Origin: Candidatus Poribacteria bacterium
GTDB taxonomy: Bacteria > Poribacteria > WGA-4E > GCA-2687025
DNA: 64,000 bases
Direction of reading: 5' to 3'
Assembly: GCA_026004875.1 (NCBI GenBank)
Contig: BPJZ01000010.1
Coordinates: 62,001-126,000, forward strand
This document shows, in pieces, positions 4,746 through 37,100 of this stretch (positions within the stretch are counted from its first letter, which is position 1; each line of letters opens with the position of its first letter). The translations under genes were made by a program, and so were the position numbers. The notes under the pieces are model-generated. The model did not search any database. It saw only the letters and a program-made list of their open reading frames with translations, and was not told where the DNA came from.

Positions 4746-4768
4746 CGCGCAACCTGGGCTGAACACAA

Positions 4769-7700
4769 ATGGAACCTAAACGTTATCATTACAACGTCAC
4801 CGGTACCGACGAGGAGGCGGAGGCGATGAAGGAGCTGGAACCGATCGGGGAGGTGGTCCGAAGACGAGTTCCCGAAAAAGAGGCCGAGCAGTACGTCAAG
4901 GAGGCGGTCGTCGCCCGGCTGGTCGAGGAGGGGCGGATCAACCTTTCTGAGGCAGAAAGGTTGCTCGGCTCGCTGGATCCGATCCGCCCGCTGTTGGCCC
5001 AGGCCCCCTCAGACGATTACCTGTTCCGCGCCTTGTTTGAATCGGCCCCAATCGGAATTGCTCTCGTCGGAACGGACGGCCGCATTGTCCACGCGAATCC
5101 GATGTTGGGGCGGATTTTAGGATACGAGCCAGGAGAGCTGGCCGGCGTCTCGTTCCGAGAGATCACCCATCCAGAAGATATCCAGCTAGACTGGGAGCTC
5201 TTCCAGGAGCTGCTCGCCGGTCGGCGTGAGACCTACGGACTGGTCAAGCGGTACCTTCGGAAGGACGGCTCTCGGATTTGGGGTGGGCTTTCCGTCTCGG
5301 CGATCCGCGATCCAAACGGAGAGACTCGCTTTGTGCTGGGGATGATGGCCGATATTACCCGTGAACTAGAGGCCGATCAGTGGCGAGCGACGCTGCTGCG
5401 CACCATTAAGGGCATCCTCTGGCGAGCTGAAGTGAGCCGAAAGCCGGATACCGGCGAATACTCCTGGGTGGTGCGGGTGGCTAACGTGGACGCCGCTCAG
5501 CGGGTCTTGCCGCTCGACCTCAGCGAGATGAAGCGAACCAACCCCGACACGCCAGAAGAGATACTCTATAACTGGGCCTGGCACGCCGCCAAGTTCCCCG
5601 AAGACCGGGAGCGCACCGATCGAAACGCCCAGCACGCCCTCGAAGAAAATACCGGGATGTACTCCCAGGAGTACCGCGTCCGGGACGTCCACGGGAACGT
5701 TCACTGGCTCTACGAAGACGTAACCGTGGATAAGCTAGGCCCAAACCAGTGGGCTTTGACAGGCTTTGCGGTGGACGTCACTCGACAAAAGGAGCTGGAG
5801 GCCCAGCTCGCCGACAAGACCGCCGAGCTCCAGGCCCTGATCGATGCCCTGCCCGATCGGCTGATCCGGATCGCCGAGGACGGGACGATTCTCGACTTCC
5901 ACGCGCCAGAATCCGCCTCGCTGGCCATCCCCTCCGATCAGTTTCTCGGCAAGCGCGTTCAGGAGGTGCTCCCGCCGGAGCAGGGCCAGGCGGCGCTGGC
6001 CGCTGTTCAAGAGGCGATCCGAACGGGGAAGATCGTCGAGTTTGAATACAGCATCCCCACGCCCTCCGGGGAGCGCTACTTTGAGGCGCGCGCTTCAGCG
6101 GCACCGGGGCGGCAGGTGGTGGCCGTCGTTCGAGAGGTGACCGAGCGCGTCCGAGCCGAGCAGGCCCTCCGCGAAAGCGAAGAGCGCTACCGCGACCTGT
6201 TCGAAAACGCCAACGACCTCATCCAAAGCGTGGACCGTGAAGGCCGCTTCCTCTACGTCAACCGCGCCTGGAAGGAACGCATGGGCTATACCGACGAGGA
6301 GATCGCCAAGCTCCGCGTCTTTGACGTGATTCACCCCGACCACCTGGAAAAGTGCCGCACGATCCTCGAACGGGTCCTCCAGGGAGAGAAGATCGGACGG
6401 GTCGAGGTGGACTTTGTGACCAAGCGCGGCGAGATAATCACCCTGGAAGGGGATATCTCCTGCCGTTACCAAAACGGGAGACCGATTGCAACGCGGGCGA
6501 TCTTCCGGGACATCACCGAACGGAAGCAGCTGGACCGGCTCAAGGACGAGTTCATCTCGGTGGTCAGCCACGAGCTTCGAACTCCGATGACCTCGATTCA
6601 AGGGGCGCTGGGGTTGCTCCTGATGGGAGCGGCCGGCCCACTGCCTGAAGAAACCCGTCGGCTCCTGGAGATCGCTCACTCGAACACCGAGCGATTGATC
6701 CGGCTGATCAACGACATCCTGGACCTGGAAAAGATCGAGTCGGGCAAGATGACCTTCCACATGCGGCCCGTCTCGCTCCGCCGGACGATCGAACAGACCT
6801 TGGAGGCGACCAAGGGATTCGCCGATCAGTACGGCGTCCGGCTGGAGCTGGAACCTGGCGAGGACGCTACCGTCTATGCCGACGCCGACCGACTGGCCCA
6901 GGTGATCACCAACCTGGTCTCCAACGCGGTCAAGTACTCCCCCAAGGGGGAGGCCGTTCGGGTCCGCCTGGAGCGTCAGAACGGCCGCGTCCGGGTCTCC
7001 GTTGAGGACAAAGGCCCCGGTATTCCCGAAGAGTACCGAGAGAAGATCTTCGATCGGTTCACTCAGGTGGACAGCTCCACCCGTCGGCAGAAGGGGGGCA
7101 CCGGCTTGGGACTGGCGATTGTCAAGGCGATCGTCGAGCGGCTCGGCGGAACGGTGGACTTCGTCTCGGAGGTGGGCCAAGGGACCACCTTCTTCTTCGA
7201 GCTTCCCGAGTACTCCAAAGCTCAAGAGGGCCTCTCAGAAGGCGAGCCGGTTCCGGTCACCTCTCAGCTCCCTCTCCTGGTGGTCGAGGACGATCCAGAC
7301 GTGAGCAGTCTGTTGACGGCGATCCTCCGCCGAGCCGGCTTCCAGGTGGAGGCCGCCCGATCGGCCCATGAGGCCTGGGAGAAGCTCCAGCAGAAAGAGT
7401 ACGCCGCCATGACGCTGGACCTGCTGTTGGGTGAAGAGAACGGCGCAGACCTCCTCAAGCGGCTCCGAGAGGACCCTCGGCTGGCGACGCTGCCCGTAGT
7501 GGTCGTCTCCGCCTTCGCCGACGAGGGCCGCGAGGAGCTCAACGGCGCCGCCTTCCCGTTGGTGGACTGGATCAGCAAACCGATCGATCAGCAGCGGCTG
7601 ATCCGCGCCGTCCGCGCAGCGGTCCTCCGACGAGGCGGCGAAAAGGCCCGCATCCTCTACGTCGAGGACGACCCGGATCTGCACGCACTCGTCGAAGCGT

Positions 7701-18205: not shown

Positions 18206-19165
18206 CTAAGGAAGCACCTTCACTCGGCCCCAGGTGGTCGGTTGACCCGCCGGAATCGTCGGTCGCAACCCCCGCGGACCAAACCAGAAGGGGTGAAACT
18301 CCAGTTCCAGGCTCTCCGTCAGGTTCTGAGGTGGGCCGCCATTCGCGGGAACGCGAAAGATCTCCACATCGGCGAACAGATCGTCTAAAAGAAGCCGATC
18401 GAAGACAATCCAGTTTCCATCGGGAGACCAGGAGGGATGGCCGTCGGAGCCGGGGAGCGCCACCCGCGTCACCCGCCGGATCGCTCCGGAGAGGAAATCG
18501 AGCACAAAGATGCCCGCCGTCCCGGCCTCCTGACGACCAACGCTCACAAAGGCCACACGCCGACCGTCGGGAGACCAGGCCGGCTGCCGATCGGCAAACG
18601 GGTCGGCCGTCAGCCGTCGGCGACCGGTGCCGTCCTCTCGAATCCAGGCGAGGTCCCCCCCCTCCCGAAAGACGATCCCCTGGCCGGTGGGCGACCAATC
18701 GGGATCCTCTTCGTGTTGCGGCTCAAAGGTGATCCGAACCAGCTCTCCGCCGTCGCGGCGGACCCGGTAGAGGTCGTAGTTCCCGGCCCGATTGGAAGCA
18801 AAAACGATCCAGCTTCCATCGGGAGACCAACTTGGGCTGATGTCGTCCCCGGCTTCCTGAACCAATGGGACGACCCCTCGACTGACCAGATCGATCAGAA
18901 AAAGATCCCAATCGCCCCGGCCGTTCCGCTCGACGATCTGCTCGACGACAACGTAACGCCCGTCTGGAGAAAGCGTCGGGTTGATCCCAACGTCGCGCAG
19001 GAGTGTCTGAACCGGACCGCCGCTCGGCCCCATTCGGACCAAATCGTCGCTCCGGCTAAAATAGATCCATTCCTGAGCCTGCGTCCACCAGGACCCCAGA
19101 ACGACCCACCAGAGGATGCCCAGGAGGACCACACTCTTGGACCACCCGAAAGGCCTAGCGCGCAA
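18206..19165 (-). CDS. TolB-like PD40 beta-propeller protein
   Basis: The protein has 319 aa. An N-terminal hydrophobic segment (VVLLGILWWVVLGSWW, about residues 10-28) is a signal peptide or anchor. Six PD40/WD40-like blades follow, each with the repeat SPDGxWIxF or close: LSPDGRYVVVE, WSPDGSWIVFAS, WSPTGQGIVFRE, WSPDGRRVAFVS, WSPDGNWIVFDR. This is the propeller found in TolB of the Tol-Pal system and in many periplasmic proteins. The start overlaps the end of the VWA gene by 11 bases, so the two are probably translated together. Whether it is a true TolB is uncertain because Pal, TolA, TolQ and TolR are not in the window. Confidence 0.85.
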   Translation of the reverse strand: MRARPFGWSKSVVLLGILWWVVLGSWWTQAQEWIYFSRSDDLVRMGPSGGPVQTLLRDVGINPTLSPDGRYVVVEQIVERNGRGDWDLFLIDLVSRGVVPLVQEAGDDISPSWSPDGSWIVFASNRAGNYDLYRVRRDGGELVRITFEPQHEEDPDWSPTGQGIVFREGGDLAWIREDGTGRRRLTADPFADRQPAWSPDGRRVAFVSVGRQEAGTAGIFVLDFLSGAIRRVTRVALPGSDGHPSWSPDGNWIVFDRLLLDDLFADVEIFRVPANGGPPQNLTESLELEFHPFWFGPRGLRPTIPAGQPTTWGRVKVLP

Positions 19166-20345
19166 GGGACATGTCGCTTTCCACTCCCCCAGGGATCAGA
19201 AACCACAAACCACCGGTTCCCGAAGCCAGCAGCCGGTGATCCGGAACGTCAATGCCGATCACGTCCACGACGACGTTCGCCTGTCGTAGCCGAGGGAGCA
19301 GCTCCAGGACCGACGCGCTCCCTTTAAGGGGCTCGTCGGTGATCAACACAAACCGATGTTGGGCGTTGCTCCGGAAGCGTACCTTTTCCAGCGCCTGCTG
19401 AATGGCGTCTAGAGCGCGCTCGTCCCCCCCAACCTTCATGTTTTTCAAAAGTCGCTCGTAGCGGGAGGCGTCTCGCGTTTGCGGAAAGACGCGCACCGTC
19501 ACGACCGCAAACTTTACCACCCCAAAGGTCGCGTCGTAGCCCTTCTCCTGAAAGGACCGCATCATCATCTCCAGGTTGTCGGCGACCGCGTGGATGTTGT
19601 TCTCCATGCTCCCGCTGACGTCCAGGAGGAAGACGATATCCACCGCCTCCGGGCCGCCCCCGGAGGTGACCTGCCCAGCGATCTGGCGCAGGGCGTTGCC
19701 GATCTGCGCCCGACGACGGCCCTGAGGAGAAAGGTCCTCCCCCAGCCCCTCAGAGCCGAAGCTTCCGACGGTCCCTTGGGACGGCTCCTGAGCGGCTCCC
19801 GGCTCAGCTTCCTCCAAGAGCTGCTTCGCCGGAGCGCCCGACTCCGTCGGAGGCCGGGGAACAACGCTCAGCGCCGACTCGTCAGGACGGAGAAGGTCCG
19901 CGACCGTCGTGACCGGCGTCGCGGGGGGCACCGGAACCGGCTCTAACGCGGGTCGCACCGGCTCCGGAGGTGTCGGCTTTGGCTCTTCAGTCCGAGGCGG
20001 CTCCGGACGGGGCTGAGGACGCGGCGAAGGGGACGGCTGCGCACGCGCCGGCTTTGGCTCGACCGGAACAACCGCCTCCACCTCCTCAGCGTCGGCGCCG
20101 GTCTGGGCCGCCAGCGCCTCTAAGGCCGACTCGGACAAAAACGCCACCTGAAGGGGCGGAGCAGCGTCCCGCCAAAGCGGTCTCTCCTCCGGCAGGGGTC
20201 GGTGAATCCACTGATGCGCCAAAAGCAACACGACTACCGCATGGAGGAATAACGAAACGATCCCCGCATGAGTCGTCCTAGAGCCGTACCACGGCTCCCG
20301 CCGCCAGGCGCGAAACGTTGAGCTCGATCCCCGAAGGTGCTCCAC
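19155..20345 (-). CDS. TonB-like membrane anchor fused to a von Willebrand factor A domain
   Basis: The protein has 396 aa. A short cytoplasmic N-terminus precedes one transmembrane segment (about residues 27-44) carrying S31-x3-H35, the spacing of the conserved Ser/His of TonB and TolA. APPLQVAFLS follows, like the start of the TonB periplasmic arm, then a Pro/Glu/Lys-rich stretch (about 90-145). Residues about 230-390 are a VWA domain with the metal-site motif DVSGSME. Thr and Asp of the later metal motifs are plausible in KVGGDERALDAI. The TonB C-terminal domain is absent. It overlaps the TolB-like gene. Two 18-bp dyads lie upstream in the divergent region shared with the sigma factor. Confidence 0.82.
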   Translation of the reverse strand: MEHLRGSSSTFRAWRREPWYGSRTTHAGIVSLFLHAVVVLLLAHQWIHRPLPEERPLWRDAAPPLQVAFLSESALEALAAQTGADAEEVEAVVPVEPKPARAQPSPSPRPQPRPEPPRTEEPKPTPPEPVRPALEPVPVPPATPVTTVADLLRPDESALSVVPRPPTESGAPAKQLLEEAEPGAAQEPSQGTVGSFGSEGLGEDLSPQGRRRAQIGNALRQIAGQVTSGGGPEAVDIVFLLDVSGSMENNIHAVADNLEMMMRSFQEKGYDATFGVVKFAVVTVRVFPQTRDASRYERLLKNMKVGGDERALDAIQQALEKVRFRSNAQHRFVLITDEPLKGSASVLELLPRLRQANVVVDVIGIDVPDHRLLASGTGGLWFLIPGGVESDMSLAR

Positions 20346-20464: not shown

Positions 20465-20482
20465 TGTTCACTTCTGTGAACA
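20465..20482. promoter_or_regulatory. 18-bp inverted repeat, candidate operator A
   Basis: TGTTCAC-TTCT-GTGAACA, perfect 7-bp arms with a 4-base centre. It shares the frame TGTnnAC-N4-GTnnACA with the second dyad 34 bp away. Confidence 0.55.
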
Positions 20483-20498
20483 CCTCTCCCCCGCCTTC

Positions 20499-20516
20499 TG
20501 TCTACGAATGTAGACA
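20499..20516. promoter_or_regulatory. 18-bp inverted repeat, candidate operator B
   Basis: TGTCTAC-GAAT-GTAGACA, perfect 7-bp arms with a 4-base centre. The half-site TGTAGACA recurs near 14351 and 21390. Confidence 0.55.
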
Positions 20517-20686
20517 AACGCCCACCCGACCCTCTGGGGTCCTGCAGCCGCCCCAGCCGGAAATTGCCTGAAAACACAGGGCTTTTTCCCCCTCGGCCGA
20601 GCCGCTCCAAAAGCTGGCAATCTTCTTGCTCTCTCAGAAACGCTGGAAGAGCGGTTCGGTTCAGCTAGGCTCTAAGGAGCGAGACC

Positions 20687-21340
20687 ATGCACGCACGACG
20701 AACGCTTGTTACCGGGAAACAGAAGCTCAACGCCCCAGCGCCGGAGGTCCTTTCCCCCTCCGACGAACAACTGATGATGGAGGTCCGGGAGGGCAACCTT
20801 CGGGCGTTCGATGAGCTGGTGGAACGTCACTACGAGCGGATGGTCTTCTTCCTATCCCAGATGCTCGGCGGAGACGAAGAGACGGCCCGCGACCTCGCCC
20901 AAGAAGCGTTTCTCCGCGTCTTTCGGGCGCGGGAACGGTACGAGCCGCGCGCTCCTTGGCTAGCGTGGATGCGCAAGATCGCTCGAAACCTCGTCTACGA
21001 CGAACGACGCCGCCGCCGTCATGGGGTCGTCTGCAGCCTCGATGAACCGCAGATCGTCGTCGGAAACGGCGAACGACTCCCCCTTTCCGAGGCGCTGGCC
21101 GACGAAGAGGCCCCCGACCCCGGACGGCTGCTGGCCGAAGCGGAGTCCTTGGAAGAGATGCGGCACGCAATCGCTGCGCTCTCGCCCAAGCACACCCAGG
21201 TCCTCGAGATGCGGCTGTACCAGGAGATGAACTATCAGGAGATCGCCGAGGCGCTCGGCTGCTCGCTAGGTACCGTCAAGTCGCGAATCCACTACGCCGT
21301 CCGAGAGTTGCAACAGCGAATCGGTCCGGAGAAGAAGTAA
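20687..21340 (+). CDS. Sigma-70 family RNA polymerase sigma factor, ECF/SigW-like
   Basis: The protein has 217 aa. AAGGAG lies upstream of the ATG. A variable N-terminus of about 25 residues is followed by sigma region 2 (FDELVERHYERMVFF ... DLAQEAFLRVFRA ... WLAWMRKIARNLVYDERRR). A linker leads to region 4 (ALSPKHTQVLEMRLYQEMNYQEIAEALGCS, then GTVKSRIHYAVREL, the DNA-recognition helix). There is no region 1 or 3, as in ECF sigmas. No zinc-finger anti-sigma gene follows. The next gene is mnmA and the divergent neighbour is the TonB-like/VWA protein, which may be in its regulon. The paired dyads upstream suggest control by a separate dimeric regulator. Confidence 0.92.
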   Translation: MHARRTLVTGKQKLNAPAPEVLSPSDEQLMMEVREGNLRAFDELVERHYERMVFFLSQMLGGDEETARDLAQEAFLRVFRARERYEPRAPWLAWMRKIARNLVYDERRRRRHGVVCSLDEPQIVVGNGERLPLSEALADEEAPDPGRLLAEAESLEEMRHAIAALSPKHTQVLEMRLYQEMNYQEIAEALGCSLGTVKSRIHYAVRELQQRIGPEKK

Positions 21341-21358: not shown

Positions 21359-21388
21359 TTGAAAGCCCTCCGCCCGGTCGAATACAAT
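21359..21388 (+). promoter_or_regulatory. Sigma-70-like promoter for mnmA, nested in a terminator stem-loop
   Basis: TTGAAA at 21359-21364, 18-base spacer, TACAAT at 21383-21388. The spacer contains the left arm of the terminator at 21369-21431, so transcripts from this promoter lack that arm. Confidence 0.5.
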
Positions 21389-21431
21389 TGTAGACACCCT
21401 GAGCAAAAGGGATGACCGGGCGGACTTTTTT
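21369..21431 (+). terminator. Rho-independent terminator for the sigma factor gene
   Basis: An 11-bp perfect stem, TCCGCCCGGTC (21369-21379) with GACCGGGCGGA (21414-21424), a 34-base loop and six T at 21426-21431. It lies between the sigma factor and mnmA. Confidence 0.6.
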
Positions 21432-22561: not shown

Positions 22562-25500
22562 TCACTTGAGCAGGACCATCCGACGGACCACCCGCTGAGA
22601 GCCGGCGCGCAGTTCGTAGAAGTAAACGCCGCTGGCGACCGGTTCTCCAAGCTGATTCCGACCGTCCCAGTGGGCTGCACGGCCAGGACGCGTGTAGTAC
22701 CCCGCCTCCAGCCGGCCCAGCTCCAATCGACGCACTAGCTGGCCTTGAGCGTTGTAGATCAGCACCTGAACGTCCGCATCGGCCTCCAGCTCAAAGGGGA
22801 TCCAGGTCTCCGGATTAAAGGGGTTCGGATAGTTCGGCAGAAGCCGAGTCGCCTCCGGCGGCTGCCAAGTGATCAGCACCTGCGCGCGGTAGGTCCCCGG
22901 ACCGATCACCAGAGAGCCGGGGCGAGTTAGGTCCCGCTCGACGGACTGAATCCGGAACGTCGCTCGGTAGCCTTCTGGCAGTTCCAGCCGGTCCCAACGG
23001 AGCGTGGCCGACTCGGGGACGCTCAGGCTCAGCTCCCATGCGCTCGTTCCTCGCGTAACCGGCTGAACGCTCCGTCGAAGCCGCTTGGCGTAATCCTCCA
23101 CCCGAACGGTGAAGCTGAGGTCCCCCATCCCCTTGAGAGCGGGAGGCTCCGGAATGTCGTACCGATCCACCCGTGGCGTGGACTCTTTGGCGCTGCCAAG
23201 CTCCACCGTCCGAGTCAGCCCGCTGGCCGTCTCCAGCCGCAGAGAGAAACTCCAGTCGGGCCGAAGCTGCTCCTGGGTCAGCAAGGGCGACGCGTGAAAG
23301 TGAGTGCCGCTCCCGCTGGGGTCCAGATGGCGCACCTGAGCGATCGCCACCGTCTGAGTCCCCGACGTTGCCTTGTAGACCCAGTAGCCCTTTCCGGGTT
23401 CCAGGCTGGAGGCCGTAGAGTACTGGGCCCCGTCCCAGGTGAAAACGTAGTTAGGATTGTCCGTTACCGCCGAGATCGGCAGCGGCTCCGGCAGCGCTGC
23501 CGGTGCACCGATCAGGTTCCACCCCTGATAAAGCGTTACCTCCGTCGCCCGTGCCTCCGGGGCGTCCACGTCCACCTGAAGGGTCGCGCTCGGAACGCCA
23601 CTGGTCAGCAGGAAGAAACCATCGGCCAGCGGCATCGGATCGAAAGGACTGAGCGATACCCAACTCTGCGTAGCGGCATCCCATCTGTAGCTGGAAACCG
23701 CCACCTCAGAAAGCGGCGAAAGGTCGTCCGGCGGGCCGGGCAGCGAGAGCAGGTTCCAACCGTCTACCAGCGAATACACCTGAGGAACCGTGTCGGCAGC
23801 GTCCAGGCGAAGTTCAAATTCATAAACCCCTGTCGTCGAGCTGGTCAGAGCGATCGGGTTGTTTGTTAGTGAGAGAACATAGGTCTCCCACGTCGTCAGA
23901 TCGGTCAACAGCGCCTGAGTATAGTTCCCAGCAACGGTCAGCAGGTGATCAACCTCCTCCTGATTCCAGCTGAGCGTCGGTGCGGGGCTCGATTGAGGAT
24001 CCACTTGGACTCGAAGCGTCCAGACCAGATCGAACGGCGTGCCGGTCGGCTTGGCGAGGATGTCCCGCAGCAGGTCCTGCCCCTCGCGCTGAGCGCGAAT
24101 CTTGGGCATCGTCCCCACCTCCCCGTTCCAAAGCACATCCTCGGCAGGACTGAGAACAACCGCATCGCTCGCTGAGCCGTCCACGCCAAGCGCGACACTC
24201 GCCGTTCCCGAAGCGTCGGCCACCTGAATCCATGCGAACGCTTCCGGTAGGAAGCCGGACCAATCCAGTGTGTAAACGGGCCCAATCCCGGAAATCGGAA
24301 GTGTGGTGAAAGTAGCCAGATCGAGGGTGCGGAGCTCCCCGGCGACGTTCTCCCAATAGGCGAGTTGACCGGCGACCCCGTACACCGCATCCGGCGAGAG
24401 TGCCGGTAGGTCCGGATAGCCCGTTCCCACCACGACCGAAGCCAGATCGCTTCCGTCGGCCAAAAACGTGCGAATCTCCGTGTAACCGGGAGCATCTTCC
24501 TGGAAGAAGATCCGAGCCCCATCCGCCTGCCAGTCGAGATGCCGGAAGTCGGCGAAATCGGCGCTTCCTCTGAAGGTCAACGGCATCGTTCCCGTCCCGT
24601 CCGAACGGACAACGTAGATCTGCCACCACCCCTCCTGATCCGGGGCAACGTAGGCAAGCCAAGACCCATCCGGCGACCAGGAGTAGTAAAGGACGTCGCT
24701 TGGATGGAACGTCACCTGCTGAAGGTTCTGCCCATCCGGATCGATGGTGTGCACCTGGACCACGCCAGAGCCGTCCGCCTGTAAAAACGAAATCTTCGAC
24801 CCGTCCGGTGCCCACCTGGGCTGAGCTCCAGCGGTCGTCTCGAAGATATACCGCGGAAAGGAGCCGTCCCCGTTAGCTCGAACGATCCAGTACTGCTCGT
24901 TGTCCTCCTGAATGTAGAGGATCTCCGTCCCGTCAGGAGACCAGACCGGGTCGAACTTCAGCGTGGGCGTCGTCAGCGTTCGGAGGAACGTTCCGTCGGG
25001 GCGCATGCTCCGAATCCCCGTATCGTCAGTGAAGAGAAGCCGCGTCCGGGACAGGTCTCCAACAGGCGCCGTCCCCCGAACGACGCCGGAGACCGGAATC
25101 ACCCGCGGCCCGATCGCGTCGTAATCGAGCAGGAGCCGATCGAACGCTGGACCGAACGTCGTTGTGTTCAACGTCAGCGTAATGTCCGCCCCGTTGGTGT
25201 CGTCCACCGTTATCGGTGGGACCGTCCCCACCGAGAAGATCGTTCCGCCCTCCACGGTAAGTGAGTCGATCACCACGTTCGGGGTTGTCCAGCTGGTCGT
25301 CTCGACCAAGTGGATCGTTCCACTGACGGGGCTCCCCGGATCGGTCTCCCCGACCGAGAACGGGACCGGCGTTGTGCCGATTCGGGGCACCTGAGCGAAC
25401 CAAGCATCTCCAAAGAGGCTCCCATCCAGACCGTTGGTGGTCTTGTCGGCAGCGTTCGCCCCACCAAAGTCCCACAGAAGCACCAGGCCTGCTTCGGTTC

Positions 25501-28500
25501 CCGTCAGGAGTTGGGCGTGCCTCTGGAGGATTCTCCCTTCAGAAAGCGCCCGGTTCCAGACGCGCACCTCGCCGATCATCCCCTTGAAGTAGCCGTTCTC
25601 AAACGCGTAGCCGGATCCGGGAAGCGCCTCGGCAGAGCCGACTAGCAGCTTACGCGCGCCGACGTTTCCGCTCCGTTCCGCGGCGATGCGGTCAACCTCC
25701 ACGCCGTCCACGTAGAGGACCAGCTCCGAACCGGTAAAGACGCCGGCGATGTGATGCCAACGCTCGGAGCTGATCGTTGTTCCCGCAGAGACGGACCCCC
25801 CGACCGCGTTAAAGAGGGTAAAGTTGAGCACCCCTGAATCCTGATATTCGAACCCAAAGTCGAGACCGGCCCAGCCGCTGGCATCGTGGGCGTTGGAGAC
25901 CAAAAGCGCAGAAGTCGCCGACGTTGCCGGACTTCCGTGCGCTTCGGACCGCATCCAGAACTCAACGGTGAGCTCGGAATAGTCCCCCAACAGCGTGCTG
26001 GCCGGGGAGGCCAGATAGTCGCCGTTCCCGTCAAAGGTCGCGGCGATCTCCATCCCGGAGAGATCGGGCGTGAACGTCTGCTCCGGCGCAAAGGCCGAGG
26101 CCAGATAGCCCCCATCAATCGCCTGCACGCTCCAATAGAGCGGGACCATCGGAACGCGTCGAAGCGTCCAAGAAGTGTTCGATCCGACGTTCCCCCATTC
26201 GGTAGTGATGTTGGCCGACATGATCTCGCTACCGCCGGGCGTCGTCCCGACCCGAAGGTTGTAGGCTAAAGCCGACTGGGAGGTCATGTCGTCCGTCGCC
26301 GCTAGCCAAGAGAAGGTGACAACGCCGACGTCAACCAGCGTCGCGCTCAGCCCCGTTGGAGTCGTCGGTGGGTTGTTCGGGGGGATCAGATCGTTCCGCC
26401 AGACATGAATGCGGGGCGAACTGTACGTTCCTCCGGTCACAAAGATGTCGGTGCGACCGTCACCGTTGTAGTCGCCCACGTCCAAGCCACCGCTGTAATC
26501 GCCCCTTGTCAGCAGGAAGCTGCCAGGAAGAAACCCCACGCCGACGTTCTCGAGAATCGAGCTCCCACCCAGCCCATGAATCACCAGGTCCAAATCGAAG
26601 TCGTAGTCTAGGTCGGCCCATTCCACAGAGATATTCGATAAAAGCCCGCCGGGGATCGTCTGGAGAAGCGCAAAGCTACCCCCATCGTTCCGGTAAACGG
26701 AGATATCCCAATCTCCTGAGAATGGATCCTCGCCAGCAACGGCCAGATCCATGTCCCCGTCGCCATCGAAGTCCCCCCAGCGCGCCCCGGCCGTGTACTC
26801 CGTCCCCCGTTGCACCGGAGCGATTCCGGCGCCGATTGCAGTGAACAGCCAATCGTAGGTCCCTGAGGGATCCGGCCCGTCGTTTCGCCATATGTCCGCT
26901 TGGACGCTCTGACCGCTGTCACTACCGCTCATGAACAGGTCCATGTCGCCGTCGTTGTCGTAATCGGCCCAATCGGCGACGGCGGCGAGCACCGGCAGCG
27001 CGGTCGAGATGGCCGTTAACAGCGGCTGGCCCGGATTGGACGGGTCCTCCCCATCGTTTCGATAGAGGAACAGTTGAGGGATCGGCCCAGAAAACCCGCC
27101 GGTGAGAAAAACGTCCAGATCCCCATCGTTGTCAAAGTCCACCAGATGGACGTTCGGATACTCGACCCCGGTTGGGAGCCCCGTCGCGGTGGTGAAGCTC
27201 GTACCATCGTAGAGGTTCAGACCGAGCGTTTCGTCAAACAGCGAGTCTAGGCCGGAAATGACGACGTCGAGAAACCCGTCGTTGTTGACATCGCCGATAT
27301 CCACGTCGCTATCAGCGCCGTTGGCCGAGGGAAGCGCCGTTGGGGTTCCAAGGCCCAAAGCGATTTGAGCCAAAGGAGCGCCGGTGCTGGGATCCTCACC
27401 ACTGAGCACCAGATCCATGATGCCGTCGTTGTTGACGTCGCCCAGCTTGAGCGCCGCCTCCGTCGGCGGAGCAGTGTTGATCGCCGTGCCGTCCCCCGTG
27501 CTCTGGTCACTCCAAGCGATCACCAACGGTGGCAGTGCCGGCGACCAGTCCGCCTCGGAGAAAAGGTCCGTCAGCGCCCCGGAGCTGCCCGTCCCAGCGA
27601 TCAGCGTTGAGGTACCCGTCCCGTCCAACGCCGACAACCGATAGACGGTCCCAAAGGTTCCCCAAAGAGCCTCGAGCCCGTCCGGCGAGATGCGAAGCCA
27701 ATCGGCACCGATCGTGTCGTTCGTCAGGCGGGTCAACACTCCGGTAGCAAAGTCCAAACGGTAGACCTCCCCCGCAGGGTCGTCCATATCCGAGAGGAAG
27801 ATGATCCCCGACCCGTCCGGTAGCAGGTTTGGATACTCCTCAACAGCGCTCGAATGACTAAATATCAGCTCCGGATTGCTGAGCACGACTCCTGTGATCG
27901 GGTCAATTTCAATCTGGTAGATGTCAAAGCTTCCCCCACGGTCCGAAGTGAAGAGCAACACCCCTCCGTCCGGCGACCAGAACGGCTCAAATTCAGCCGA
28001 GGCATCCGACGTCAGCGGAATCGGCGTCCCCGTCCCGTCCGCATTGATCAGATAAAGGTCTCTCTGGGATAGGGAAAAATCGTCCATCGAATAGGCGATC
28101 CACAGGCCGTTGGGTGACCAGCGAAGGTCGGTGACGAATGCGTTGCTGTGGGTGGCAATCGTGGTGACCTCCCGACCGTCAATGGTCGCCACAAGAATCG
28201 CAGCGCTGCCAGTTGGAGGCGAGCCGGTGTTTTGAACAAAGGCGACCTTCCGCCCGTCCGGAGACCAGGCCGGATAGTCCTCATCGGGATCCCAAAGGCT
28301 CAGGTGGATCTGAACGGCAGCGCTCCCGTCCGGGTGGAGTGCAAAGATCCGATACGCGTCGGCGTCCGGATCGAGTGCCGAAACCGCCAAGCGCGTGTTG
28401 ACGTCTAAATCGCCAACCGGAGGCACCGCATCGGTGCCTACTCCTTGAAGCCTCACGTGTCGAGAACCGATCCCATCGTAATCCAAATAGAGATCGGCCA

Positions 28501-31102
28501 GCTCCAATCCTCGCCGATCCGGCGTGAACCCAACTGTTACGTCCATACTCGCGTTCACTCCGATCAAAGCGGGCAGTGAGGCCGCCGGCGTCGCCTCGAA
28601 GTTCCCTGTACCGGAGCCACTAAAGGACACCGCGTCAAACGACACTCCCGCCGTTCCCACGTTGGTGAGCGTCAACGTCTGGTCGGCTGCAGGGATGTTC
28701 ACCGTGCTCTGAAAAGGAGGCAGTGAGGTTGCAGAAAGCGTCATCCAACCGACCGGAGCAAACCCGTAGTTCCCATCGATGACCGCGCTGGAATCGGTGA
28801 CCAGCTCCCTGGCGTAACCGTCGTCAAAGTTCACGTGAATGATCAGCGACGTCGCCATAACCGGCGCAGTTGCGCCCATATCCTCCCAGATCTGATCCTG
28901 GGTCAGCGCCACGCCTTCCCAGACGCGAATCTCATCGTAACTGGCGGAGAATCCCGCCCAGTTATCGCCGACGTAGAGACCTGGATCGGCTGTACTCCCG
29001 GCTGTGATCCCACTGCTGATGGTTGTCTTCGCGTCCAGAAAGCCGTTGATGTAGATACGCAGGGTCAAATCTGCCGAATCCCAGACCGCCGCAACGTGGG
29101 TCCACCGATCGAGCGGAATGACGGACGTGCCCGTTAGAACCACGTCTGAAAGACTAGCGTCCCTCACGACCGTTTTGATATTGCCGCTAGGAGTGACGTA
29201 CACCCGAGGCGTCGGCGTCGGGCCGGTGGGATACCCAAACAGCAAGGCGTCGCTTGCTACTAACGCCGAAACGCGCACCCAGCCGGACAGCGTCCAGGCG
29301 ACGCTGGAGGTGATCGGCGCGCCGATCCCATCAATCGGGCCAACTCCACTCTCCTGGACAAGCGCCCGCTGCTGAACCCCTAGCGGCGGCAGGTCGGAGC
29401 TGGAGTAGCTCACATTCCCTTGAAAGAGCCCCAAAACTGCGTTTCCGCTCTTGTCCTCCGCAACCGGGGGCCCGTCGTTATCGAAGTTCCAGTAGACCTT
29501 CAGCGCTGGGTCCGGGCTGAGTCCCTGGGCATAGGCGGCCTTCTGAATTCCCAGCTGGTCCCGATCGACGTTCCAAATGCGCACCTCGTCTACCGAACCG
29601 GCGATCGTGTTCCCCGTTGTTGGGTTGTAGCCAACGTAAACAGCGCCGTAGGTGCTGGACAGAACGACCATCGTCTGAGAGAGGTAAAGCGAACCCCCTG
29701 ACTCGGCGACAAGCGCCCCGTCAACATAAACCCACGCGTCGAGTCCGTCGTACACCCCGGCAACGTGATGCCACTGACCGTCTGCGTAGGCAGAGGGGGC
29801 AAAGACGGTCGTTCCCCCCGCCTCAAAGGCGAGCACAGTGTTCGCGCCGTCCCAGCGCCAGCCGATCCCGTAAGCGCCAGTCCCGTCCGTCTGGCGGATG
29901 TCCACCAAGGAGTAGTTCCCGTTCGTCGAGGCGTCCGGAGCGGCGTCCAACCGAAACCAGGCCTCCAGCGTCACCGCGGAGAGGGTGCCCAAGGCCGAAA
30001 GGTTGTCCTCAGCGACTAAGTACCCACCCCCCAGCTGCAGGGACTGCGAGGGCGCGGCGGAACTGGTGTCCCGCGCGACGGCCGCCAGCCGGACCCGCGA
30101 CGCCCCCGGCGCGTCGGAGAGCACTTCGAGCGTCAAGTCCCTGTAGATCGCCGGAGCAGAATCGAGAAATTGAATCGGAATAGAAGCCGAATCGAGTGGG
30201 TTAAGCGCGATGGGAAAACTCGCCGTGGTGGTGAAGACCCCGGAGGGGAAGTTAATTCCCGTGATCGTGGCCGCTTGATCGCCGGTGTTCTGAACGTCCA
30301 GATTCACCACGGCCGACGTGTTCACCTCAGCGATTCCAAAGTCTAAAAGGGTCTGGGTGGCCGTCAGCCGCGGAATTGCCGTTGTCGTCGCTCCGTTCAG
30401 TAACGTCCCGTCGTTCATGCTTGCTGAGAGGTCGGGGACGATACTCGCCGTTGCGTTGTCGAACTCGTAGCGGAGAACCAGCGCCGGATGAGCGGAGGAG
30501 TCGTTCAGCATCTCTTCTAGGATGCCCCAGCCCGACGGCCCGTTGATCGCGTCCTGGTAGACCCGGACGTCGTCAATCATCCCCGGAAACTCACCGATGG
30601 ACCAAGCGAGCCCAAGCTGTCCCAGGCCGGCGGGTCCCACGGCCGTGGTGTCGAGAACGCCGTTGATATAGAGCGCCAGCTCTCCCGCGACCCCGTCGAG
30701 GCTCATCGCCACGTGCACCCACTGATTTGAAGGGATGGTCGCCACGCCGGTGATCGGATAAGGGTTCGACAGCGCATCCGTTACCGTCCCGAAGAGGCTC
30801 AGAAGGCCGCTGTTCTTGCTGACGTAAAACTGAGGACTTCCCGTAGGCTCGCCGAGGATAAGCGCCTGGGTCCCATCCGACATGACGCCCCCGTCCACAT
30901 AGACCCAAGCGGCCACCGTAAAACTGCTGCTGAGAGTAATCCCCGATGCGGTCAGAATCTGATCGTCCACCCCGTCCAGGACGGCTGCTTCTTCCGCCCC
31001 CCAAGCCCCGGTGGCCCCCAGAAGGAGCAACCACACGACAAGCGCTCCGGCAACTGCCTGTTTCTGCGGACGATTGGTCATCGTCTTGACTCCCGCTGCC
31101 AT
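22562..31102 (-). CDS. Giant secreted LamG / PD40 / VCBS protein with C-terminal sorting domain
   Basis: The protein has 2846 aa. ATG 31102, or ATG 31081, which has the better placed GGGAG. A signal peptide comes first (LVVWLLLLGATGAWGAE). Then LamG domains at about 37-235, 355-560 and 575-770, separated by choice-of-anchor-D-like beta domains; PD40 propeller blades (about 900-1190); VCBS/FG-GAP repeats with DVNNDGxxDLV motifs (about 1200-1540); FN3 (about 1570-1660); a fourth LamG (about 1685-1880); and a second PD40 set (about 2020-2280). A GWNLL/GWNLIG module (about 2440-2600) precedes the sorting domain LLPNYPNPFNPETWIPF (about 2752-2846). It is last of three giant genes on this strand. 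Likely role: cell-surface or extracellular adhesion or glycan binding. Confidence 0.9.
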   Translation of the reverse strand: MAAGVKTMTNRPQKQAVAGALVVWLLLLGATGAWGAEEAAVLDGVDDQILTASGITLSSSFTVAAWVYVDGGVMSDGTQALILGEPTGSPQFYVSKNSGLLSLFGTVTDALSNPYPITGVATIPSNQWVHVAMSLDGVAGELALYINGVLDTTAVGPAGLGQLGLAWSIGEFPGMIDDVRVYQDAINGPSGWGILEEMLNDSSAHPALVLRYEFDNATASIVPDLSASMNDGTLLNGATTTAIPRLTATQTLLDFGIAEVNTSAVVNLDVQNTGDQAATITGINFPSGVFTTTASFPIALNPLDSASIPIQFLDSAPAIYRDLTLEVLSDAPGASRVRLAAVARDTSSAAPSQSLQLGGGYLVAEDNLSALGTLSAVTLEAWFRLDAAPDASTNGNYSLVDIRQTDGTGAYGIGWRWDGANTVLAFEAGGTTVFAPSAYADGQWHHVAGVYDGLDAWVYVDGALVAESGGSLYLSQTMVVLSSTYGAVYVGYNPTTGNTIAGSVDEVRIWNVDRDQLGIQKAAYAQGLSPDPALKVYWNFDNDGPPVAEDKSGNAVLGLFQGNVSYSSSDLPPLGVQQRALVQESGVGPIDGIGAPITSSVAWTLSGWVRVSALVASDALLFGYPTGPTPTPRVYVTPSGNIKTVVRDASLSDVVLTGTSVIPLDRWTHVAAVWDSADLTLRIYINGFLDAKTTISSGITAGSTADPGLYVGDNWAGFSASYDEIRVWEGVALTQDQIWEDMGATAPVMATSLIIHVNFDDGYARELVTDSSAVIDGNYGFAPVGWMTLSATSLPPFQSTVNIPAADQTLTLTNVGTAGVSFDAVSFSGSGTGNFEATPAASLPALIGVNASMDVTVGFTPDRRGLELADLYLDYDGIGSRHVRLQGVGTDAVPPVGDLDVNTRLAVSALDPDADAYRIFALHPDGSAAVQIHLSLWDPDEDYPAWSPDGRKVAFVQNTGSPPTGSAAILVATIDGREVTTIATHSNAFVTDLRWSPNGLWIAYSMDDFSLSQRDLYLINADGTGTPIPLTSDASAEFEPFWSPDGGVLLFTSDRGGSFDIYQIEIDPITGVVLSNPELIFSHSSAVEEYPNLLPDGSGIIFLSDMDDPAGEVYRLDFATGVLTRLTNDTIGADWLRISPDGLEALWGTFGTVYRLSALDGTGTSTLIAGTGSSGALTDLFSEADWSPALPPLVIAWSDQSTGDGTAINTAPPTEAALKLGDVNNDGIMDLVLSGEDPSTGAPLAQIALGLGTPTALPSANGADSDVDIGDVNNDGFLDVVISGLDSLFDETLGLNLYDGTSFTTATGLPTGVEYPNVHLVDFDNDGDLDVFLTGGFSGPIPQLFLYRNDGEDPSNPGQPLLTAISTALPVLAAVADWADYDNDGDMDLFMSGSDSGQSVQADIWRNDGPDPSGTYDWLFTAIGAGIAPVQRGTEYTAGARWGDFDGDGDMDLAVAGEDPFSGDWDISVYRNDGGSFALLQTIPGGLLSNISVEWADLDYDFDLDLVIHGLGGSSILENVGVGFLPGSFLLTRGDYSGGLDVGDYNGDGRTDIFVTGGTYSSPRIHVWRNDLIPPNNPPTTPTGLSATLVDVGVVTFSWLAATDDMTSQSALAYNLRVGTTPGGSEIMSANITTEWGNVGSNTSWTLRRVPMVPLYWSVQAIDGGYLASAFAPEQTFTPDLSGMEIAATFDGNGDYLASPASTLLGDYSELTVEFWMRSEAHGSPATSATSALLVSNAHDASGWAGLDFGFEYQDSGVLNFTLFNAVGGSVSAGTTISSERWHHIAGVFTGSELVLYVDGVEVDRIAAERSGNVGARKLLVGSAEALPGSGYAFENGYFKGMIGEVRVWNRALSEGRILQRHAQLLTGTEAGLVLLWDFGGANAADKTTNGLDGSLFGDAWFAQVPRIGTTPVPFSVGETDPGSPVSGTIHLVETTSWTTPNVVIDSLTVEGGTIFSVGTVPPITVDDTNGADITLTLNTTTFGPAFDRLLLDYDAIGPRVIPVSGVVRGTAPVGDLSRTRLLFTDDTGIRSMRPDGTFLRTLTTPTLKFDPVWSPDGTEILYIQEDNEQYWIVRANGDGSFPRYIFETTAGAQPRWAPDGSKISFLQADGSGVVQVHTIDPDGQNLQQVTFHPSDVLYYSWSPDGSWLAYVAPDQEGWWQIYVVRSDGTGTMPLTFRGSADFADFRHLDWQADGARIFFQEDAPGYTEIRTFLADGSDLASVVVGTGYPDLPALSPDAVYGVAGQLAYWENVAGELRTLDLATFTTLPISGIGPVYTLDWSGFLPEAFAWIQVADASGTASVALGVDGSASDAVVLSPAEDVLWNGEVGTMPKIRAQREGQDLLRDILAKPTGTPFDLVWTLRVQVDPQSSPAPTLSWNQEEVDHLLTVAGNYTQALLTDLTTWETYVLSLTNNPIALTSSTTGVYEFELRLDAADTVPQVYSLVDGWNLLSLPGPPDDLSPLSEVAVSSYRWDAATQSWVSLSPFDPMPLADGFFLLTSGVPSATLQVDVDAPEARATEVTLYQGWNLIGAPAALPEPLPISAVTDNPNYVFTWDGAQYSTASSLEPGKGYWVYKATSGTQTVAIAQVRHLDPSGSGTHFHASPLLTQEQLRPDWSFSLRLETASGLTRTVELGSAKESTPRVDRYDIPEPPALKGMGDLSFTVRVEDYAKRLRRSVQPVTRGTSAWELSLSVPESATLRWDRLELPEGYRATFRIQSVERDLTRPGSLVIGPGTYRAQVLITWQPPEATRLLPNYPNPFNPETWIPFELEADADVQVLIYNAQGQLVRRLELGRLEAGYYTRPGRAAHWDGRNQLGEPVASGVYFYELRAGSQRVVRRMVLLK

Positions 31103-31131: not shown

Positions 31132-34100
31132 TTACTTGGCCACCACGATCTTACGCGTTACGATCTGAGACCCGGCGCGAAGCGTCACGAAGTAGACCCC
31201 GCTGGCGACCGGCTCGCCTAGGGCGTTTCGTCCGTCCCAGCGGGCCGCCCGCTGCCGGTCGGTATAGGAGCCCGGATCCCGATAGCCCAGAGAAAGCCTT
31301 CGCACGACCTCTCCAGTGGCGTTGTAGATGGTCAACGTCACTTCCGACGGCTCCGCCAACAGGAACGGAATCCAGGTCTCCGGATTGAACGGATTGGGAT
31401 AGTTGGGCAACAACGCCGTCCGTGTCGGCCGGAGGCCGTTCAGCTCCCAGTCGCTTAGGCGCCCGAAGTAGAGCCGTCCCTGGGTATCGCTCAGCTCAAC
31501 ACCCTCAATGCGAATCTGCCGGAGCATCGTCTCCGGGTCCATTCGCCCCGCCGCGCGGACGCGGACGCGCACCAGCTCCGCATCGGGCCGCCCATGAGCC
31601 GCGCCGACGCGAAGGAGGGCCAGCTCGCGAAGCCCCGGCCGCTCCGGAAACGGCAGCGTCAGCGTCTGAGCGCCGCCAAAGGCCCGTCCCGGCTCCGGCG
31701 ACTCGAACCCGATCTGCTCCGAGCTCTCCGCCAGTCGGAGGAGCACCCCGCTTGCCGAAAGCGGACGCTCGCTCCGGAGGACCAGCTCCAGCGCTCCGTC
31801 GCCGCTCCGCTCGACAACCGGAACAACTCGCAGCGCCACCGGGCGCGGCGCCACTCCAGGCGCAGTTGGGGTGACCTGCTCGCCAAAGTGGGCCGCGACC
31901 GTCGCCAGGTCCACGATGTTTACCAATCCGTCCCCGTTGACGTCCGCCGGCCCGGACGTCCGCTGTCCAAAGAACCGCGCGACCGTCGCCAGGTCCACGA
32001 TGTTCACCACCCCGTCGCCGGTCACGTCCCAGGGCGCCGGAGGCCGCTTCGGAACGGCCTGAACGGCCACCGTGGCCGAACCGTCCACCGTCACGGAGAT
32101 CTGACGGGTGGCCGGATTCAGACTCGCCCCAGGCACCTCCTCCCAAGTCTCCCCAACCAGCCGGAAGAAACGCACCTCGTTCTCCTCCAGGTCCAAATCG
32201 GGAGGAAGGGTGATTCGCACCGTCACTGGGCGGTTGAACTCCTCGACAACCTCGTCTTGGGCGTTGATCGCTTCGACTCGGAAAGCGGTGCCCGGAACCA
32301 CTCCTTCAAGCGAGGGAACTTCAGCCGCCGGAACGGCACGGAGAACCGCACCCAGCAACCGGTTGGAGAAGATGCCGTTCGCCGGCACCTCTACCCGAAT
32401 CGCCCCCCGTTGGAGGGTTCCACCGGGACTGGTCAAAAAGACCAGGTCCAGCGGTCTGGAAACCACCCGTGGGTCCCGATTGCCCGCCGCGTCCACCGAG
32501 ACCAGCGCGTAGAAAACAGTCTGCCCGGCTACCGGCTGCGAATCGGTGAAGCGGGTTCCCCGCACGTCGCGAGCGATTGGCGTCAGGTCCGACGCGTTCA
32601 CAATCGGCAAGGTCGAGCGGTATACGTCGTACCGATCTGCGTTCGGATCGGCGCCCCAGCTCAACACGACCCCTCGGCCATCGGTCGAGGGACGAGCCGA
32701 AAGGCCCGCCGGGGCGGTTCCCGGAGCCTGCGTGTCCAACGAGACGGTCTGCGCAGGGCTGAGCGTCTCGTTCCCCGCGGCGTCCACCGCCCGAATCTGA
32801 ACGGTGTTCAGCCCCTCGCTCAGGGTGATCGTCCCCGAATACCGACCACCGGAGACGCTCAGCGGAACCGCTTCGCCGTTGACCAGCGCGCTGACGGAAA
32901 CCGCACCGGCAGTGTAGTTGTCGCTCACCGTTCCGCTGAGGTTCAGCGACGCCGTTTGCGAGGCGCTTGGAAGCGTCCCCGCCTGAAGGGTCGGCTTCGT
33001 CTGATCCAGGAAGACTCGATAGGTCGCCGAAGCAGCGCTCAAGTTCCCCGCCGCATCTTGAGCCACCGCGGAGATGTCGTTGTTCCCAAGCGCCAGCGCC
33101 ACGTTGGCGACCTCAAACGACCCAGAAACGTCCTTCACCTGGACCACCCCGGCCGAGGCGCCGTTCACCTTCAAGGAGACAGCGATCGGAAACGGGCTGG
33201 TCTCCGAAAGGTCCGGAACCCGACCGCGAACCGTGATCGTGCTCTGTCGCGTCACCGTAAGGCTCGTCTCCAGCACCGGCGCCGAAGGCGGCTCGGTTAC
33301 AACATCAAAGGACCACTCCATGAACCCCACGTTGCCGGACAGGTCGGTCACCTGAACGCCGATCGTATTGGTCCCCACCCCAAGCAGACCGGTCGCCGTT
33401 CGGAGCGACTGCTCCACCGACCCGACCGTTTCGGCACCCAGCGAACGCTCCAAGGTGTTCAGCTCCAGCGGATCAAAGGAGGCTCCCGAACCGCCGGTGA
33501 GACTCCGCTCCAAAGTGTTCAGCTCCAGCGGATCGAAGGCGGCGCTCCCGCCGGTCAGACTCCGCTCCAGGGTGTTCAGCTCCAGCGGATCCAGCGAAAA
33601 TCCCCCACGAGCGCCGATCAGCGGAACAAACAGCCGTCGGGCGTCAATCGTCACCACGCCCGTATCACGGTTGAACTGAGCCACCCCAGCCTCCTCCAGG
33701 CCGCTCAGGTTCAACGGGCGCTGACCGGTCGGGTCGTTGACGAAGAGGATGACCTCCGCAACTCCGCTCGCGTCGCCCACCGAGAAGGAAAGGATGTCCA
33801 GGCCGGTGTCGTTGATGTCCTCCCCCTCACGCGGACGAAGGACGGTCACCACCGGCTCCTGCTCGTCCTGGGCCTGAAGGTTCACCGAGAAACTCCAGCT
33901 GAACTCAGCAGTGTTCCCGGCCCGATCGGCCGCCTGGACCAGAACGCGATAGGTCTTTCCGTCCTCCAAGGGGGCCGGCGTAAACCCAAACTGCCCAGAA
34001 CGCCGATCCAGCGCGAAGCTCGGATCCGTGTGAACCGGACGGAGCGTCCCCCCTTCCTCGCCAAACCGAACGACGACGCTCTCAAAGTCCAAATCGTCGG

Positions 34101-37100
34101 CAGTGATCGTTGCGCCGATAAACGGCTCCGCCGTGGGAACCTCCTCCCCGTCGTAGGGGATCGGGTTTGCGATCACCACCGGCGAGCTGTCCACCAGAAA
34201 ACGGATGCTGGAACGAGTCTCGTTCCCTGCCAGATCGCGAACGACAACGGTGACAAAGTGCTCCACCGGCCCTTCCTCCGAGCCGGAAAACGGCTCCGGC
34301 GCCTGGTACCGGACGACTCCATCCTCCGGAGCCGAGGGCGTCACCGGCGCGCCGTCCACGCTCATTTGAAGAGAGGACCATTCCACGCCCAGGTTGTCCC
34401 CCACCTGCAGGAGGATCTCCGAGACGCCAAAGGGAACCCGCACCCCGCCCCGCGGACTCAAAAACCCAACCCGGGGCGCCGCCGTGTCCAGAACGACCCG
34501 TTTGGCCTCGCTAGCGGTCTCCTGCCCCAAGCTGTCCTCAGCAATCGCGACGATTTCGTTCTCGCCCGGCTTTAGTCGAACAAAGGGCGCCTGAAAGCGA
34601 GTTCCCTCCTGACGGGTCGCCGCTGGAGAGCCGTTCACCAACACGACCACACGCAGATCAGCACTCGCCAGCGTACCCCGAACGATCAGATTCTGACGAT
34701 TGGTCAGCTCCGGGACCTCCAGCGTCGGCGGATCGGGCGGCGCCACGCGACGAAAGCGCAGCTCATACACTCGCGACCGGTTTCCGGCCTGGTCTTCTGC
34801 CTGGAGGAGCACCAGATGCGGCCCGATAGCGATTTCCTCCAAAACCAGCGATGCCCGGCCCTCCTGGAAGTTCAACCCGATCTCCCGGCCGTCCAGCGTC
34901 CCAAAGACGCGCCGAACCCCGCTCTGGTCGTCGGTCACGATCAAGCTCAACTCCGCCGTCGGCTCGGCGATCCGTAGCTCCGCGCCGGTCCGGAAGAATC
35001 GGCTTCCCAAACGGGCGTTCAGGAGCTTGGGCGGATTCACGTCGGCCAATCCCACCTGAAAACGGAGCGTCCCCTCAACCAGAGCGGCGTTCCCCGCCAA
35101 GTCGGTCGCCTCAATCCGAACGGAGATGACCGCATCAGCGGCAAACGAAGCCTCCGGTGTAAAGGTGAACACCCCCGCCGCCGGGTCGAGCTGCGCCGCG
35201 ACCGGCTCCCCATCCAGCAGCAGCCGAAACGTCCCAGGATCCACACCAGAAAGCGCGTCCCGCAACACCCCCCGGAACGTGGGCCGGAGGCTAGCGCTCG
35301 GAGCGCCCAACGCCGGCGAGTACAGCTCCAGCACCGGTGCCGTCCGGTCGTAAAGAACGCGCACCGGATCGGATGGCGGCGACAGATTGCCGACCGCGTC
35401 GCGCGCCTGAACCTGAATCTCGTGCGCCCCCTCTCCAGGAAGGCTCAGAGCCACCGACCAGGTTCCGTCCTCGCCCACCCGCGTCTGAGCCGCTAGCTGC
35501 CGATTGACCAGAAACAGCAGCTCAAGACCGGGCTCCGCCTGGCCCTGAAACTGGACGGTCCCCTCCCGGACGATCTGCGCGAACGGCTGATCCTCCCCAG
35601 GAGCGCTCGCCCCCTCAGAGCCCAACCCTGGAGGCGTCGGCGGAGCGGTGTCCACCGTGAAGCTCCAGACGGCCTGGGCTGTGTTCCCCGCGTTGTCCGC
35701 AAAGTCCACCTGAACCTGATGCTCCCCGTCTGAAAGCGGTTCGCTCAAGTTCAGCTCGACCACGGCGCTGGTCTCCTGAACCGCCCAGACGGTCACCGGA
35801 ACCGGAATGCCGTCCAGCTGCGCCGACACCGACGCGGAATCAATCCCTGAATCCGTATCGCCGATGGCCACAGAGACCGGCGGAAGAGAAACGTTGACCA
35901 CCCCGGTCGGCTGCTGAGCAGCAAAGGTCGGCGGCGTCGTGTCGGCAGCGCCGGGAACGATCGAGAAGGTGCTCAGAAGAATACCGGTAACGTTCACCGC
36001 ATTCCGGGCGCGAACGACCACGACGTACCCTCGCCCGCTGATCAGCCGTTGCTGACCGGCATAAACCCCCGTGGCCGGGTCAAACGCGACCGGGAAGGGA
36101 TCCCCGTTCAACGTGACGGTCACCGCGTCCGGATCGGAACTGGGACCAGCGGTTCCCCAATCCACCGTAAAGGCGATCAACGGCTCCTCATTGGCCACCT
36201 CAGAACCAGGATCGGGACTGATCATTCGAATTTGCGGCGGACGAGTGTCTAACACCGCTTCGACCGGATCGGAAAGGGCGCTTACCACCCCCTCTGGAGT
36301 GGTGTACTGCGCCGCGATGTCGTACCGACCGCTCTCCAGAGGATCGGTCGTGACGCTGAACCCTCCCCCATCATCCGCGAGGCCTGCTCCGACCGGCGCG
36401 CCGTTAGCGAAGACCTGGACCGTTGAACCGGCCGCGGCGCCCGACCCCTGAACCACTAACTGCGGCGTCGCGCTCGGAGGAATCGGCTCTAAAACCGGTG
36501 CTGGCGGCGGTGCGTTCCACAGCACAAAGAACGGCGAAGAGATGGCCGCTCCAGTCTGCGTCTCGGTGATTCGAATCTGATATCGCCCACCGGCGGCACC
36601 GGGGACGTCCGCACCCGAATGCCAGATCGCCTGAAACGTCCCGGAGGTCAAATCGTTCAGGTCGCCGGAGCCGGTCCCCACGTTCCAGTCGGGCTGGCCC
36701 TCAGCACGATACTGCAGCAACAGGCCGGCTCGATAGCCGGGGTTTGGGTTGACCAGCTCGAAGTTTGCCAGGATGTCGCCGGAGGCGCCGACCACCTGGA
36801 GCCCTCGAAGGGCGATCTGCGCAGGGCGCACCTGGAACGAGACCGGATTCGACCGCACCTCCTGATCGGCAAACTGGGCAACGATCACAACGGTATAGAC
36901 CCCCGTCGCGAAGACGGAACTGGTCTCATACCGCATTCCGGTGACTACATCCACATCCGTGGAGGTCAACGTCAACGAAAGGAGGTCGCCGCCCTCTGGG
37001 GAGATTTCAGCAATGACCGTCGCTGGTAGTTCGCCCGTTGGGTTCCGAACTACGCCGCCGATACGGACGGTCTGCCCTGGGGTCGCCGTCGCCGGATTGA

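Follow-up and report, generated by a model that had tools for sequence, protein, structure and literature searches.

Two dyads of one outline upstream of an ECF-type sigma factor gene

The window, that is the whole 64-kb stretch of DNA that was analysed, contains two 18-bp dyads between the gene of a VWA-domain protein and that of an ECF-type sigma factor. The region comprises the following features:

19155-20345, minus strand: VWA-domain protein gene on the far side of the dyads; probably not a target, and without a far-side counterpart in three relatives
20465-20482, no strand assigned: distal 18-bp dyad, TGTTCAC-TTCT-GTGAACA; predicted upstream activating site, centre at about -166 from the predicted start
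20499-20516, no strand assigned: proximal 18-bp dyad, TGTCTAC-GAAT-GTAGACA; predicted upstream activating site, centre at about -132
20615-20630, plus strand: predicted sigma-54 promoter, TGGCAA-TCTTC-TTGCT, matching the consensus at 10 of 11 positions; start predicted near 20640
20674-20679, plus strand: Shine-Dalgarno-like AAGGAG ahead of the sigma gene, read in the sequence
20687-21340, plus strand: gene for an ECF-type sigma factor of 217 aa, predicted to be the target; matches Sigma70_r2, Sigma70_r4 and TIGR02937 above the cut-off

An earlier note on this DNA had described the dyads and their flanks, and this description was borne out: both are found in place with perfect 7-bp arms, 4-base centres and 34 bp between their starts, and they are flanked by the VWA gene on the minus strand and the ECF-type sigma gene on the plus strand. 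The sigma protein has its closest named relatives, at 59% and 55% identity, in Candidatus Poribacteria MAGs, and no relatives of it were found in viral contigs.

Within the window the outline TGTNNACNNNNGTNNACA matched only the dyad pair, giving two matches against 0.02 expected from shuffles, and none of 100 shuffled windows contained two matches to TGTNNAC-N4-GTNNACA. The host genome (2.84 Mb, 64.3% complete) contains the outline at three places, namely both dyads and one further match within the coding region of a bEBP-like gene. Perfect dyads with 7-bp arms and 4-bp centres, whatever their sequence, number 12 in the window, so a single one is nothing unusual; what is rare is the occurrence of two of one outline 34 bp apart.

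The sites are conserved with the sigma factor gene

Close orthologs of the sigma gene were identified in four of the 84 genomes of the phylum (the host genome G000, as well as G001, G003 and G005), scoring 346-373 bits with the next best match at 181, using a search model built from all four orthologs that it re-finds. The earlier note had named missing conservation upstream of orthologs as its refutation, and this outcome did not occur, sites being present at all four loci: TGTCTACGTATGTGTACG and TGTATACGGAATATGACA in G003, CGTATCCGAATGTATACA and TGTATACTTTCGGTGACA in G005, and a single site, TGTACACAGAAGTAGACA, in G001. The best outline match of each upstream region was reached in 0 to 1.6% of regions simulated with an order-1 Markov model. 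Since the seven sites re-found by the motif matrix also served to build it, its scores there carry no independent weight; the tests free of this circularity are the outline taken from the earlier note and the sigma-54 promoter consensus. Among more distant ECF relatives, matrix scores in L008 and L062-L086 did not exceed 9.9.

The spacing of the sites is not conserved, amounting to 34 bp here and 40 bp in two relatives, with one site in G001. The proposed separation of a little over three helical turns hence describes the present locus and fails in the two relatives. Of the two binding schemes offered at the outset, one dimeric regulator recognizing repeated 18-bp sites of the sigma gene agrees with the data, and two paralogous regulators are not needed because single sites in the relatives mix different half-sites.

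The gene on the far side of the sites differs in each relative, being a Gfo/Idh/MocA oxidoreductase in G003, an AMP-binding enzyme in G005 and, in G001 (L099), a gene oriented like the sigma gene. In its longest reading the AMP-binding ORF of G005 covers the sites; its true start is unsure, since the Pfam match begins at residue 76. Because the far-side gene changes from relative to relative, the sites go with the sigma gene, and the suggested shared control of the VWA envelope gene found no support, the G001 arrangement not even being divergent. Most likely the dyads serve the sigma gene and not the VWA gene.

A predicted sigma-54 promoter lies between the sites and the gene

We compared the upstream regions with the -24/-12 consensus TGGCAC-N5-TTGCW, requiring GG and GC at fixed spacing. 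Between the sites and the start codon each of the four loci contains a sigma-54 element: TGGCAATCTTCTTGCT in G000, TGGCAACGTTCTTGCT in G003 and TGGCGCCGCATTTGCT in G005, each with 10 of 11 positions, and TGGCACAACAGTTGCT in G001 with 11 of 11. Element scores of this height arise in 0 to 0.7% of order-1 Markov simulations of the respective regions. Here the element lies 72 bp upstream of the sigma-gene ATG, and the predicted leaders at the four loci measure 47, 63, 57 and 51 nt. The site centres are located 132-240 bp upstream of the predicted start (-156 to -240 in the relatives), which we counted as agreeing with the expected enhancer range of roughly 80-200 bp upstream of the start.

In a BLAST comparison of the G000 and G003 upstream regions the top alignment covered the promoter (E 0.018) and the next one the proximal dyad (E 0.22); the remaining pairs yielded only weak short matches, and elsewhere the upstream DNA can hardly be aligned. 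Hits with 10 of 11 positions occur at two places on both strands of the window against 1.3 expected from shuffles, so that one promoter match alone is weak evidence. The occurrence of the element in the same place at all four loci is, at the level of sequence, strong evidence for a sigma-54 promoter.

None of 41 other ECF loci, representing 31 distinct genes properly examined (9 are duplicates, and for L015 the scan fell in the wrong place, its contig ending early), showed a sigma-54 element of at least 10/11 upstream. A 9/11 element lies farther upstream in seven of the 41 (six distinct genes): L013, L022, L070, L074, L079, L081 and L084 have TGGCGC-(A)(T/C)TTT-ATGCT, which six distinct genomes of genus g12 have in common, at a distance of some 340-420 bp ahead of the ECF match. 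The phylum may contain a further ECF gene under sigma-54 control.

Probable activation through sigma-54 and its alternatives

The dyads and their conservation alongside the sigma gene, the conserved sigma-54 promoter, the distances, the sigma-54 genes of the relatives and the bEBP genes are all observed. From these we infer binding, activation, looping and a start site: the dyads are most likely enhancers for an activator that drives the ECF sigma gene via sigma-54. A dimeric bEBP with a Fis-type helix-turn-helix would bind each dyad, assemble its AAA+ ring there, reach, by looping, the sigma-54 RNA polymerase positioned at 20615-20630 and spend ATP to open the promoter. The transcript, beginning near 20640, would then yield the ECF sigma factor, which in turn would transcribe its own genes, constituting a sigma-54-to-ECF relay. 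An ECF gene with Sigma70_r2 and Sigma70_r4 domains does lie directly behind the sigma-54 promoter, as expected of such a relay. Against the enhancer reading we counted that the two sites, at 34 versus 40 bp, are not both on one helix face, that a single site was found in G001, that the distant ECF relatives are without sites and promoter, and that rpoN was not found in the 64.3% complete MAG of the host.

The earlier note had proposed a repressor, and in its classical form this would be a dimeric MecI/BlaI-, LexA- or TetR-like protein for which the dyads are operators, shutting off the sigma gene and possibly that of the VWA protein as well. MecI-type operators contain CTAC-N4-GTAG. Perfect 18-bp palindromes between divergent genes fit such operators, and the proximal dyad holds this core; the distal dyad does not. 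The near-consensus sigma-54 promoter, however, begins 99-177 bp downstream of the nearest site at all four loci, making a direct block of the promoter unlikely because the sites are too far upstream, and this layout is the geometry of activator enhancers, so that repression is not supported. In addition, the BlaI family (PF03965) was not found in G000, G001 and G003, three of the four site-bearing genomes (G000 and G003 being incomplete), with three matches in G005, and no sites lie near lexA-like genes. A LexA box was likewise rejected, with no match of at least 7.5 in L034, L035 and L036 and no LexA_DNA_bind match in G000. A sigma-70 promoter that escaped detection near the dyads may be the target of a repressor; overall we regard repression as improbable.

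Less probable again is an activator or nucleoid protein acting on a nearby sigma-70-type promoter, with the sigma-54-like element being incidental. The shuffled windows, with about 1.3 hits of 10/11 each, would allow for an incidental element, but not readily for one in the same place at four of four loci, with leaders within 47-63 nt and surroundings that hardly align. RNA hairpins in the leader transcript, suggested by the perfect 7-bp stems and 4-base loops of both dyads in the host genome, are very improbable and were dropped, given that the arms are not complementary in the relatives (TGTATAC-TTTC-GGTGACA in G005 has three of seven pairs mismatched without compensation) and that transcription is predicted to start downstream of the sites. 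Chance occurrence of the pair, for which one may cite loose genome-wide matches close to the control count, is likewise very improbable in view of 0.02 expected in the window and the presence of sites upstream of all four close orthologs.

A candidate regulator and the sigma-54 machinery

Turning to the proteins that activation through sigma-54 would employ, rpoN was found in eight of nine genomes, including G001, G003 and G005, and bEBP-type AAA+ matches in nine of nine, with 21 PF00158 matches in G000. HTH_8, the Fis-type DNA-binding domain, is present in L147, L152 and L154. Taking the best 54 of 78 PF00158 matches from the four site-bearing genomes and 16 of 30 from G002 and G004, the profile search gave 70 bEBPs over the six family genomes; a strict motif search gave 26 proteins. 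Clustering of these 70 listed proteins revealed one group confined to the four site-bearing genomes:

L166:2075-3502, L179:1497-2930 and L189:1512-2969: candidate NtrC-type bEBP; its frame is broken in the host MAG (L157)

A profile search of the 84 genomes, using a model that contains the G001, G003 and G005 sequences that it re-finds, gave 961-992 bits in these three and at most 533 bits elsewhere, the G000 copy reaching 555 bits over positions 170-472. The candidate and the ECF ortholog occur in the same four of 84 genomes, and this common presence in four of six family genomes is suggestive of a regulator link. The protein has a receiver-AAA+-Fis architecture and the helix GINRNTLHAK, identical in all four genomes; a GAF-domain histidine kinase gene precedes it in G001 and a kinase-like ORF in G000 and G003. 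The resemblance to NtrC is one of architecture, as L166 with 490.3 bits falls below the TIGR01818 cut-off of 558.6, and L166 and L179 match HTH_8 and not HTH_50, placing them outside the TyrR/GcsR class.

Three observations count against the candidate: GAFTNA or GAFTSA replaces GAFTGA, the frame breaks at the P-loop in a run of Gs in the host genome (L157 ~2540-2600, G000:C3), and at least four other bEBP clusters also occur in all four site-bearing genomes. The frame break may be an assembly error or real. The L152, L154, L156 and L148/L150 groups, found in all four genomes and also elsewhere, are possible alternative regulators. The likeliest arrangement, which we put forward tentatively, would be that an NtrC-type response regulator paired with a dedicated histidine kinase binds the dyads. 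In three of the four genomes the candidate is followed by a gene with a conserved, VRVTMPNGDRYTGEW-like start (L166 3512-5000, L179 1-1468, L157 3438-4965), for which the L166 copy gives propeller and TPR hits.

A more specific scheme, which we regard as rather doubtful, is that a dedicated histidine kinase and a bEBP whose loop reads GAFT[NS]A, present in part of the family only, would use TGT-N12-ACA enhancers together with sigma-54 to control a single ECF gene and a very small number of secreted-protein genes (e.g. L100 in G001). If true, the kinase/bEBP/ECF circuit would be a three-step signal relay not described for the Poribacteria phylum.

Comparison with known systems

The NifA site reads TGT-N10-ACA and is thus 2 bp shorter than the sites described here. 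Like the NifA site and the TyrR box (TGTAAA-N6-TTTACA, quoted in PMC4894688), the present sites are TGT...ACA palindromes of the kind bound by Fis-type domains; with the TyrR box they share the same 18-bp frame, TGT-N12-ACA, although the inner letters differ. In the gcs2 operon of Pseudomonas aeruginosa, the TyrR-like bEBP GcsR uses three copies of TGTAACG-N4-CGTTCCG near an RpoN site (PMC4894688), likewise 18 bp with two 7-bp arms around 4 bases upstream of the RpoN site. The loci differ in having one or two sites here versus three there, in their inner letters, in the metabolic operon that is the target there, and in the Fis-type (HTH_8) and receiver domains of the candidate regulator here.

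Two ECF genes with known sigma-54 control offer further parallels. The hrpL gene of Pseudomonas syringae is driven by sigma-54 with HrpR/HrpS (PMC5263251) and resembles the present locus in its ECF gene behind a sigma-54 promoter, its distal activating sequence and a region common with a divergent gene; in contrast, a two-component bEBP probably acts here in place of the HrpR/HrpS pair, and the divergent gene here is not conserved. At the P2 promoter of Escherichia coli rpoE, sigma-54 and a response-regulator bEBP (RpoN with QseF; PMC8103513) likewise control an ECF gene; P2 is one of several promoters there and has other sites. According to a review, bEBP sites lie ~100-150 bp upstream and act through looping (PMC7057263); a genome study found their distances to vary, and natural GAFTGA variants to include GAFTDA and GAFTHA (PMC4641369). 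The layout agrees with both papers and is that of a standard sigma-54 promoter with upstream activating sites.

The control chain itself is already known, here in a little-studied phylum. On this reading, unexplained palindromes become a concrete circuit and the sign of control is corrected from repression to activation. It would add a sigma-54-driven ECF gene outside the groups in which such relays are usually studied, and provides a site model and a candidate regulator for Poribacteria, a phylum known mainly from metagenomes. In the parts of the literature available, nothing joining Poribacteria with sigma-54 was found beyond a Janthinobacterium study.

Further sites and neighbouring features

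Loose genome-wide matches were close in number to those of reversed-pattern controls (7 versus 4, 9 versus 5, 5 versus 7 and 18 versus 15), therefore few targets are expected. A second place in G001 (L100, the same as L027) combines TGTTCACTTCTGTAAACA with a 10/11 promoter 176 bp away, upstream of a secreted-looking gene without Pfam or NCBIfam match. A weaker case is L216 (G011), where a 9/11 element lies 86 bp from the site. These two were the only ones with a promoter of at least 9 at 60-300 bp among 31 motif-like loci away from the ECF gene, for one of which (L029) a default site position was used that may be inaccurate. L100 contains two adjoining similar-looking secreted-protein genes without Pfam match (4276-6041, G001:C52), with a well-spaced start codon just ahead of the 5178-6041 ORF, followed by an in-frame TAA.

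Three other loci with high-scoring sites were rejected as targets. In L102 a 9/11 element is only 34 bp away from where the site begins, which falls short of the 60-300 bp required. The sites of L103 and L161 overlap -10-like letters by eye; no sigma-54 element of at least 8 was found within 500 bp in L161, and L103 has only two overlapping 8/11 hits, on the other strand and inside the gene. The L103 match (2049-2068, G003:C118; site-model score 20.8) precedes a histidine kinase gene and then a fliF-like gene (PF01514); it overlaps TATACT, lacks a sigma-54 element and is probably due to chance.

Within the window a third, weaker site, CGAATACAATTGTAGACA, is located at 21379-21396 before mnmA with a score of 14.4. 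No sigma-54 element of at least 9/11 was found near it, and it was treated as chance, TACAAT being -10-like with TTGAAA 18 bp upstream (by eye). Between the sigma gene and mnmA, the segment 21370-21431 comprises CCGCCCGGTC ... GACCGGGCGG with a 34-base loop and a subsequent T run and looks like an intrinsic terminator, with which a possible mnmA promoter overlaps. Farther downstream the window contains two giant minus-strand ORFs, 22562-31102 (2846 aa) and 31132-40818 (3228 aa), the former exhibiting LamG-like repeats by eye and an FlgD-like 'NPFNPETWIPFELE' tail at its end.
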